Assembly: GCF_003574625.1 (NCBI RefSeq)
Contig: NZ_QNUJ01000008.1
Coordinates: forward strand, 62,001 to 126,000
Origin: Shinella zoogloeoides
GTDB taxonomy: Bacteria > Pseudomonadota > Alphaproteobacteria > Rhizobiales > Rhizobiaceae
Length of the DNA stretch: 64,000 nucleotides
Direction: 5' to 3'
The notes under the pieces are model-generated. The model was not told the DNA's origin, made no database searches, and saw nothing but the letters and a program-made list of their open reading frames with translations. Positions 57,717 through 59,717 of this stretch are shown piece after piece (positions within the stretch are counted from its first letter, which is position 1; each line of letters begins with the position of its first letter). Position numbers and translations under genes: made by a program.

Positions 57717-58322
57717 ATGGCAAAACGAGTCACCGGCCCCGAAATCGAAAAACTCATCCAGCTTCTGGCGAAGGTGCCGGGCCTCGGGCCGCGCTCGGCG
57801 CGCCGCGCGGCGCTGCATCTCGTCAAGAAGAAGGACCAGCTTCTCGGCCCCCTCGCCGAGGCGATGGGCGAGGCGCATCGCAAGGTGCGCATCTGCTCGT
57901 GCTGCGGCAATGTCGATACCAGCGATCCCTGCACCGTCTGCACGGATGTGCGGCGCGACCAGTCGGTCATCATCGTCGTCGAGGACGTCTCCGACCTCTG
58001 GGCGCTGGAGCGCGCGGGCGCGATGAACGCGGCCTACCACGTTCTCGGCGGCACGCTCTCGCCTCTCGACGGCGTCGGGCCGGACGATCTCAACATCCGC
58101 GGCCTCGTCGACCGGGTGGCGAAGGGGGACGTGCGCGAGCTGATCATCGCCGTCAACGCGACCGTCGAGGGCCAGACGACGGCGCATTATATCACCGACC
58201 AGCTCACCGGCCTCGACGTGAAGATTACACGCCTCGCCCATGGCGTGCCGGTCGGCGGCGAGCTCGACTATCTCGACGAAGGCACCCTGACGGCGGCGCT
58301 GCGCGCCCGCACGGCGATCTGA
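57717..58322 (+). CDS. recR: Recombination mediator RecR
   Basis: A 201-residue protein of the RecFOR pathway. N-terminal HhH ([20 protein letters not shown]), the C4 zinc site [18 protein letters not shown], and the Toprim domain with the segment [20 protein letters not shown]. Full length. Near its ATG, the divergent MOSC gene begins. Confidence 0.95.
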
Positions 58323-58337
58323 GGAAGGTTTTTGACG

Positions 58338-59717
58338 ATGCTTGGATGGCTGCGGCGTTTCACCCCCCTCTGCCCTGCCGGGCATCTCCCCCACAAGGGG
58401 GGAGATCGGCTGGGGGTAAGGCGGTGCCACGATTCAATCTCCCCCCCTGTGGGGGAGATGCCCGGCAGGGCAGAGGGGAGTATCGCAACCCGCCTCGTAC
58501 TCGCAATTGCCATGACCCTTGCCGCTCTCCCCGCCCATGCCGCCTCCAAGGCCGAGGTGGAGAAGATGTTCCGCACCTGGATCGACAAGGACCTCTGGCC
58601 GTCCGCGCAGAAGGCCGGCGTCGGCGAGAAGACTTTTCGCGCTGCGATGGAGGGTGCGACACTCAACTGGGACCTGCCCGACCTCGTTCCGCCCGGCTCC
58701 AGGCCGAAGAAGGAGCAGGCGCAGAGCCAGGCGGAGTTCTCCTCGCCGGGCGCCTATTTCTCCGAAAAGCGGCTACAGAGCCTTGCCGGCCGGGGAGGCA
58801 GCCTTGCCAGCACCCATGCCGCCACGCTGCGCAGGATCGAGAAGCGCTTCGGCGTGCCGGGCGAGGTCGTCCTTGCCGTTTGGGGCCGCGAATCCGGCTT
58901 CGGCAGCGCGAAGATCCCCTATTCGGCCGTGGACGTGCTGGCGACGAAGGCCTTCATGTCGACGCGCAAGGACATGTTCCGCAAGGAGCTGATCGCCGCC
59001 CTCCATATCGTCGACGGCGGCGACCGCACGGTGGACCAGCTCAAGGGCTCCTGGGCCGGCGCGCTCGGCCAGCCGCAGTTCATGCCGACGAGCTTCCTGA
59101 AATATGCCGTCGATTTCGACGGCGACGGCGTGCGCGACATCTGGGGCTCGGTGCCGGACAGCCTCGCCTCCATCGCCAATTACCTGGCGCAGAAGGGCTG
59201 GCAGGCCGGCCGCGGTTGGGGTTACGAGGTCTCCATTCCGGATGGCGTCTCCTGCGCGCAGGAAGGCCCGGACCTCGCCAAGCCGATCTCGGCCTGGGCA
59301 TCGGGCGGCATCACGCGCATTTCCGGCAAGGCGTTTCCGGCCGGCGAGGCGAAGGCATCCGGCATGATGCTGGTGCCGGCCGGAACGCACGGACCGGAAT
59401 TCATCGTCACGCCGAATTTCTACGTGATCAAGGAATACAACAATTCCGACCTCTACGCCCTCTTCATCGGCAATCTCGCCGACCGCATCGCCTTCGGCAG
59501 CGGCCCGTTCCGGGGCGAATGGGGCGATGTCGGCAAGATGCTGCGCTCGGACGTGCTGGCCATGCAGAAGGCGCTCGTCGCCAAGGGCTACGATGTCGGC
59601 AAGGTCGACGGCCTGCCCGGCTACAAGACGCGCCGTTCGCTCGGTGACTGGCAGGCCAAGAGCGGGCTTGCGCCGACCTGCTATCCCGATGCCTCGCTGA
59701 AATCCCGGCTTCGCTGA
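58338..59717 (+). CDS. Lytic murein transglycosylase (MltB family) with a repeat inside the signal peptide
   Basis: A 459-residue periplasmic enzyme cleaving peptidoglycan. Catalytic E185 is in VWGRESGFGS; SLT_2 fold features such as GALGQPQFMPTSFLKYAVDF are conserved; the C-terminus is a PG_binding_1 domain (MQKALVAKGYDVGKVDG). Removing the 114-bp element 58365-58478 (38 codons, no stop) gives the N-terminus MLGWLRRFTSIATR followed by LVLAIAMTLAALPAHA, a textbook signal peptide. As encoded, the element adds a Gly/Pro/Arg-rich insertion between the n-region and the hydrophobic core. Export may be delayed, or start at a later codon (58512). A frame to the TTG at 58332 is also open. Confidence 0.9.
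   Translation: MLGWLRRFTPLCPAGHLPHKGGDRLGVRRCHDSISPPVGEMPGRAEGSIATRLVLAIAMTLAALPAHAASKAEVEKMFRTWIDKDLWPSAQKAGVGEKTFRAAMEGATLNWDLPDLVPPGSRPKKEQAQSQAEFSSPGAYFSEKRLQSLAGRGGSLASTHAATLRRIEKRFGVPGEVVLAVWGRESGFGSAKIPYSAVDVLATKAFMSTRKDMFRKELIAALHIVDGGDRTVDQLKGSWAGALGQPQFMPTSFLKYAVDFDGDGVRDIWGSVPDSLASIANYLAQKGWQAGRGWGYEVSIPDGVSCAQEGPDLAKPISAWASGGITRISGKAFPAGEAKASGMMLVPAGTHGPEFIVTPNFYVIKEYNNSDLYALFIGNLADRIAFGSGPFRGEWGDVGKMLRSDVLAMQKALVAKGYDVGKVDGLPGYKTRRSLGDWQAKSGLAPTCYPDASLKSRLR
58365..58478. repeat. 114-bp palindromic element inside the transglycosylase signal sequence
   Basis: 42-bp inverted arms (58365-58406 and 58437-58478) with one mismatch, the outer 28 bp perfect, spacer 30 bp. It begins CCCCTCTGCC and ends GGCAGAGGGG. 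It is a different sequence from the CCCCTCACC repeats but of similar size and GC-rich architecture. Length is a multiple of three, with no stop in the reading frame used by the gene. Confidence 0.93.

Follow-up and report, generated by a model that had tools for sequence, protein, structure and literature searches.

An in-frame palindromic repeat in the predicted signal peptide of a Shinella lytic transglycosylase, and its recurrence in other genes of the genus

Palindromic repeats that lie in frame within protein-coding genes are established in Rickettsia and Wolbachia and have been reported for enterobacteria, Neisseria and REP-rich species, according to the portions of the sources consulted (PMC10969869, PMC2229807, PMC3767692, PMC3733652, PMC2759123). 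In particular, the Rickettsia palindromic elements (RPE) and the Wolbachia palindromic elements are described in these excerpts as repeats of 100-150 bp with many copies, located in frame in unrelated conserved genes and also in intergenic regions (PMC10969869, PMC2229807, PMC3767692). REP elements, in the part of the source consulted, include palindromes inside the open frames of several species, and the REPs of the GTAG and CGTC families are 20-40 bp units that end in these motifs, with transposase genes linked to the GTAG family (PMC3733652). The enterobacterial RU/ERIC, the Yersinia repeats and the neisserial Correia elements are small mobile repeats that the excerpts describe as fused in frame to genes, as MITE fusions. 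The Rhizobium-specific intergenic mosaic elements (RIME) are about 108 bp long and comprise two large palindromes; their type locus lies between chvI and chvG in S. meliloti and NGR234 and, to our knowledge, they are limited to the Rhizobiaceae. Rhizobial RIME and the A, B and C palindromes of Sinorhizobium meliloti are characterized, in the portion of the source consulted, by a conserved secondary structure, dozens of copies and intergenic locations (PMC2573895).

Within the window (the whole 64,000-nt stretch of DNA that was analysed), a lytic transglycosylase gene occupies positions 58338 to 59717 of the forward strand, to which all features below belong, and encodes 459 aa plus a stop codon. 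Its product matches NCBIfam TIGR02283 (MltB_2) above the cut-off, with the Pfam domains SLT_2 at residues 78-382 (E = 2.8e-95) and PG_binding_1 at residues 404-455 (E = 4.3e-8). The upstream neighbour is recR (57717-58322; NCBIfam TIGR00615, E = 1.5e-64, above the cut-off), whose stop codon (58320-58322) is followed by GGAAGG (58323-58328), judged from the sequence to be a likely ribosome-binding site for the ATG at 58338; a recR match lies near the transglycosylase gene in 75 of the 78 loci compared. The dN/dS of the transglycosylase core is 0.06-0.21 in nine pairs, all element-bearing, and by this measure the host gene is under purifying selection.

The frame from ATG 58338 is open across a palindrome into the enzyme. 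It begins with the eight codons MLGWLRRF (58338-58361), the predicted n-region of a signal peptide, whose leader type is common to the element-free loci L033 and L044. These codons are followed by a left arm read as TPLCPAGHLPHKGGD (58362-58406), a core separating the arms (58407-58436) and a right arm read as ISPPVGEMPGRAEGS (58437-58481), which includes an in-frame ATG at 58458. Further downstream are a putative hydrophobic core of the signal peptide, LVLAIAMTLAAL (58494-58529), assigned by reading the sequence, and PAHA (58530-58541), a probable signal peptidase I site with cleavage after A68; many orthologues end similarly, and the predicted precursor contains the segment TPLCPAGHLPHK... 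The arms are 45 nt long and 96% complementary. With the 30-nt core they make up an insert of 120 bp, or 40 codons without a stop, which separates the first eight codons from the hydrophobic core of the MltB_2 signal peptide. A preliminary description of this DNA had claimed a near-perfect inverted repeat of 42 bp (58365-58478) with 38 stop-free codons in frame; the repeat is confirmed with slightly wider limits, and the insert stays open over 40 codons and on into the enzyme.

The element's potential for RNA structure is extreme. Its calculated fold has a free energy of -108.1 kcal/mol (z = -11.3; 0 of 200 shuffles equal it), and the longest stem with two or fewer mismatches is 45 nt, compared to at most 15 nt when the 401-nt region was dinucleotide-shuffled 25 times. 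Each arm forms its own hairpin and also pairs with the opposite arm. Moreover, the left arm is stop-free in all six frames, a property also reached by 835 of 5000 mononucleotide shuffles of the arm. Like MITEs, the element has terminal inverted repeats; no clean target-site duplication could be delimited, and the host sites differ in length among species. An Rfam scan of the window returned nothing at the element, the gathering score being reached only by two tRNAs and the 4.5S (small SRP) RNA.

The element is a dispersed repeat. It matches at least 31 places in its own 5.4-Mb Shinella genome (G000), after manual merging of 78 matches and with all 40 candidates of the genome scored, and both arms are present at 17 of these places, where the copies measure 117-156 bp. 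Based on codon-position GC and start codons, read by eye and without a gene caller, 14 of the 17 two-arm copies were judged to lie between genes and three lie in frame in genes, one of them within a signal peptide. A congener (G003) yielded 41 two-arm copies, a partial set because 40 of its 115 candidates were scored; seven are in frame within genes, including three in signal peptides and a doubtful one at the N-terminus of a terminase (L223), which was entered as in frame, with an upstream part that may form a small gene of its own. The remaining copies of both genomes were judged intergenic, and it is the 3 of 17 and 7 of 41 copies in genes that depart from the intergenic location of RIME.

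Across a sample of the order, with four candidates scored per genome, matches at an E value of 1e-3 occur in 16 of 199 genomes; matches under 1e-10 occur in five genomes of the same family, including this one, and in one of family f41, and the element is missing from at least two genomes of its own family. Among plasmid records, 183 match, 73 of them from Rhizobium and 70 from Sinorhizobium; the matching records include ones of S. meliloti, S. fredii NGR234 and Shinella zoogloeoides (NZ_CP131131.1:128920-129039), the last at the coordinates of a G018 hit. The Y1_Tnp transposase was not found in the element's own genome (0/1), with the control search giving a match in 5 of 14. Two further kinds of sequence were observed beside the two-arm copies. 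Lone half elements of 36-40 bp (L021-L023 and L134-L140, own genome), several of which share a similar flank that ends in gaggct, seem to form a monomeric repeat class of their own. Copies L002 and L012 (own genome) and L193, L202 and L204 (G003) end in GGGGGGTATG, so that a purine run followed by an ATG lies at the element's edge; the gene that follows L002 is not in frame with its ATG.

These properties allow a comparison with the described repeat families. Like RIME, the Shinella element is a structured rhizobial repeat with dozens of copies; the copy in the window is 120 bp long and has a hairpin in each arm. Unlike RIME, which the excerpts describe as intergenic, the element has some of its copies in genes. 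The chvI-chvG region, read for a two-hairpin arm in five genomes, none a type strain, contained it in 0 of 5. By these descriptions, the element may belong with RIME. It resembles REP elements as a palindrome within open frames, and it differs from the GTAG and CGTC REPs in its 120-bp length, as opposed to their 20-40 bp units, and in the lack of a Y1_Tnp match in its genome, as opposed to the transposase linkage of the GTAG family.

The mltB site itself is variably occupied. The transglycosylase gene is present in all 21 Shinella genomes searched, which were chosen independently of the ranking of relatives described below, and its leader contains the element in 8 and is missing it in 13. The preliminary description had predicted an uninterrupted leader by excising the element and proposed a comparison with close relatives for the empty form; such forms exist, as two of the 13 element-free loci, L033 and L044, match the leader type without the element (MLRRLRRFTPRLAF.. 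and MLRWLRRFIPF..), and their leaders, MLRRLRRFTPRLAFATALALAAFPAHAAS and MLRWLRRFIPFALLLAVALPAQGAS, are similar to the predicted one. The same mltB insert is common to G000 and G018, which belong to a single species, and six further Shinella genomes have inserts at the site. Among the named loci, drawn from the best 80 of 388 relatives, the leader holds a two-arm element in 17 of 57, or of 56 when the duplicate L054 is set aside, a share that is not a frequency because of this ranking and because one of the six search patterns for these loci, HLPHKGGD, falls within the element. Moreover, one arm is visible in L070, where the contig ends, possible remnants occur in L058 and L107, and the mltB leaders of L078 and L086 hold other palindromic families. 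The leader of L078, from another Rhizobiales genome, contains the in-frame sequence SVIPVLVTGIQ..WIPATRARMTE, which we take to be a repeat, the third observed.

A tree of recR and the MltB core (74 rows, representing 74 of 78 loci; L054, L070, L103 and L104 are outside it, the last two having no recR match) requires the element label to change at least 16 times, with 14 changes forced by starred branches. Judging from this tree, the element at the mltB site has undergone repeated gain or loss. A single ancient insertion, kept by selection in the Rhizobiaceae, would explain why, in most leaders, the insert has one common frame and one common position, past the n-region and before the hydrophobic core, and some of the contrary evidence could also have arisen by gene conversion from other copies; a single insertion is unlikely, however, in view of the at least 14 forced label changes (losses possibly among them), the differing arm subtypes, the other palindromic families in L078 and L086, and the arm being read in another frame in L099 and L101. 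The leader of L031 is a different, short one although its core is 98% identical to those of L024 and L025; since the whole leader differs despite this identity, leaders seem to be exchanged as blocks.

The core between the arms also lies in reversed orientation in some orthologues. At mltB, the cores of G000, G018 and G006 align to that of G003 with an identity of 0.80-0.87 when inverted and 0.53-0.57 when direct; to that of G007 the reversal is less clear and below the cut-off, with 0.73-0.77 inverted and 0.63-0.67 direct. The mltB core of G004 has values of 0.91 inverted and 0.61 direct to G016, and 0.76 and 0.58 to G020. Further, the cobN cores of G004 and G016 have values of 0.78 inverted and 0.61 direct, and the imelysin core of G016 has 0.93 and 0.60 to G004 and 0.75 and 0.60 to G003. 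Gapped identities of unrelated cores reach about 0.6, which makes values of 0.75-0.78 weaker evidence than 0.9. The inverted cores sit at the same junctions at all three sites (mltB, cobN and imelysin), and all forms are open; no aminotransferase pair passes, nor does the one NicO pair, and many pairs are too diverged. The simplest cause, as far as the sequences indicate, would be recombination or template switching between the arms, and replacement of the core from another copy may be an alternative to inversion.

The element is in frame in five genes at six sites (mltB, two in CobN, and one each in a class-IV aminotransferase, a NicO transporter and an imelysin). A search of the genome for other in-frame copies, which the preliminary description had suggested, thus brought up CobN and the class-IV aminotransferase, with further ones in the congener. 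Over all six sites in Shinella, 34 of 34 intact alleles are in frame; about 10 are the alleles that revealed the sites (one each, and five at CobN site 2), and the other 24, located through the host gene alone, are in frame without exception (24/24). The host genes were noticed via an open frame that spans the element, and out-of-frame insertions elsewhere could have been missed. In 46 copies judged non-genic, 181 of 276 frames are open, so that an open insert is easily obtained and one that has the right length as well is less so.

At CobN site 1, the element is intact in 7 of 21 genomes, decayed in L146, represented by another palindrome family in L152 and absent in 12; all 21 segments are in frame and stop-free, and the insert, aligned to structure 9uk9, falls between chain residues 187 and 198. 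CobN site 2 has an intact copy in 6 of 21 genomes and is empty in 13; of the other two, G009 retains a remnant in frame and G013 one out of frame. The G013 locus (L160) has a degraded remnant and a short ORF of 858 residues, which may reflect a broken gene or an error in the sequencing. The class-IV aminotransferase (PF01063; NCBIfam 'hypothetical protein' family PRK07546; weakly like aminodeoxychorismate lyase) has an intact element in 8 of 21 genomes, a second family nested in it or replacing it in L174 and L175, remnants in L178 and L180 and an empty site in 9, with 21 of 21 in frame. An AlphaFold2 model of this protein (mean pLDDT 74.5, pTM 0.69) places insert residues 57-102 between a helix and a strand with a pLDDT under 50, and the insert is therefore predicted to be disordered within an otherwise mostly confident fold.

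Two other sites lie in signal peptides. The element is found in 2 of 21 NicO transporter leaders, with a second family in one, and in 3 of 21 imelysin leaders, with a second family in two; alternative starts are available at NicO (GTG and TTG in L239, GTG in L240). In the imelysin leaders L263 and L275, hydrophobic stretches flank the insert, as if the signal core were partly duplicated. The second palindromic family has a similar build (CCCTCATCC.. with CCTTCTCCCC hairpins) and was observed in L258, L275, L282, L152, L174 and L175 of Shinella and in the mltB leader L086, where it occupies, in frame, protein sites also used by the first family, in one case nested in it. The arm of the first family is read in several frames in different host genes (TPLCPAGH.., PPLPCRAS.. 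and PPSALPGI..). Overall, signal peptides represent about one percent of coding sequence, yet they hold 3 of 7 in-frame copies in G003 and 1 of 3 in the element's own genome, which looks like an enrichment, in small numbers.

The kept frame argues for translation of the insert in mltB. The comparison covers 27 interrupted leaders from Rhizobiaceae and relatives: 25 with this element, plus L078 and L086; L054, whose leader is the same as that of L026, and L070, cut by the contig end, are outside the count. Insert lengths vary among species. Followed backwards from the mature enzyme, the frame stays open across the insert in all 27 leaders, as far as a start upstream of it (26 ATG and 1 TTG, the latter being the sole upstream start of L101). 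Of the two shifted frames, one is open in 11 leaders and the other in 2, with an upstream ATG in 3 and 0, respectively. The compared rows are related and these counts are not independent. A start inside or after the insert is disfavoured, as nothing would then keep the frame, and we infer that ATG 58338 is the start codon. The preliminary description had held that its reading would be refuted by relatives that have the interrupted start and initiate downstream of it; relatives do share the interrupted start, while use of a downstream start is disfavoured by the frame kept in all 27.

The candidate for such a start is the ATG within the right arm (58458-58460), from which translation would begin MPGRAEGSIATRLVLAIAMTLAALPAHA, leaving the part upstream of it as an untranslated leader. 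This ATG has a purine-rich run before it and a plausible short signal peptide after it, and repeats in NH2-terminal regions may be extragenic through misannotation, according to the part of the source consulted (PMC3733652). The use of this ATG is nevertheless very unlikely: all 27 leaders keep the upstream frame and start, L099 and L101 read the arm in another frame that has no such ATG, and the purine run abuts the ATG without spacing, inside the predicted -108 kcal/mol hairpin. Moreover, CobN and the aminotransferase offer no such escape; within these conserved enzymes, reading through the element is forced.

Counted at codon positions 1, 2 and 3, the changes within the element are 1,1,1; 1,4,1; 0,3,2; and 3,11,7 for the four mltB pairs, out of five, that allowed the comparison; one cobN pair gives 1,0,1, and three aminotransferase pairs give 0,0,2; 1,0,2; and 1,0,2. 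The four mltB pairs have no third-position excess within the element, and so the frame, not the peptide, looks constrained. Selection on the inserted peptide is not claimed, as the changes are too few and inconsistent.

Alternatively, the palindrome could have been selected for gene control at the RNA or DNA level, as a pause, an RNase target or a protein-binding site, with its frame being secondary. The hairpin potential, the place just past the start codon and the near-perfect arms would suit such a role, which is quite improbable given that the element recurs in unrelated genes and mostly, as judged, between genes, that 13 of 21 Shinella orthologues do without it (including L031, with its 98% identical core), and that no intrinsic-terminator T run follows it. 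A pseudogene, or an error of assembly, is scarcely credible as an account of the interrupted gene: nothing beyond the insertion itself speaks for it, and against it stand a dN/dS of 0.06-0.21, the same insert in G000 and G018 and site inserts in six other Shinella genomes.

By far the most probable explanation is that the locus carries a dispersed, non-autonomous mosaic palindromic repeat, in frame in the n-region of the signal peptide, which is translated from ATG 58338, removed at export and mostly tolerated. One copy of a Rhizobiaceae repeat would have inserted in frame into the signal peptide n-region of a periplasmic lytic transglycosylase; translation would start at ATG 58338 and read through all 40 codons; and signal peptidase would cut off the foreign residues together with the signal peptide after PAHA, so that the mature enzyme would be unchanged. 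Because the arm is stop-free in six frames, chance insertions may survive where extra residues are tolerated, as in n-regions and protein linkers. A placed copy would then be inherited, be lost, decay or be nested by other palindromes, and its core may turn round without closing the frame. The inserts in CobN and the aminotransferase would stay in the protein as a linker or a disordered loop.

A wider proposal, tentative and on balance doubtful, is that Rhizobiaceae palindromes use signal peptides as a protected home, with more than one family resettling the same leaders and the core flipping in place, possibly as a slow coding switch that tunes the export of envelope proteins. According to this proposal, the residues are discarded at export, and more than one palindrome family could therefore settle repeatedly in the same leaders; the flipping core would provide lineages with different n-regions that are all open.

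Among the described systems, the Shinella element is like the RPE in its size, its many copies and its in-frame positions in unrelated genes; it is unlike them in belonging to another bacterial family, in recurring in signal peptides and in having cores inverted in place. Its arm is read in several frames, whereas the excerpts describe RPE with a conserved peptide. The resemblance of an insertion in an export signal to Rickettsia palindromic elements, proposed in the preliminary description, finds support in behaviour, namely in the empty relatives, the other in-frame copies and the 27 of 27 frames; the best reading by analogy is that the element would work like an RPE. In RU/ERIC, the Yersinia repeats and the Correia elements, the repeat itself gives the hydrophobic signal, whereas the Shinella element adds a polar stretch before or within existing signals. 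Among the matches listed from the open-licence literature, the excerpts contained no report of translated palindromic elements in Rhizobiaceae, nor of repeated insertion into signal peptides, several families at a single site or inverted in-frame cores.

Element-bearing and element-free orthologues stand side by side in one genus, which makes the choice between a neutral passenger and an altered protein directly testable. Overall, these free-living bacteria show a coding-palindrome behaviour that is best known from Rickettsia and Wolbachia.
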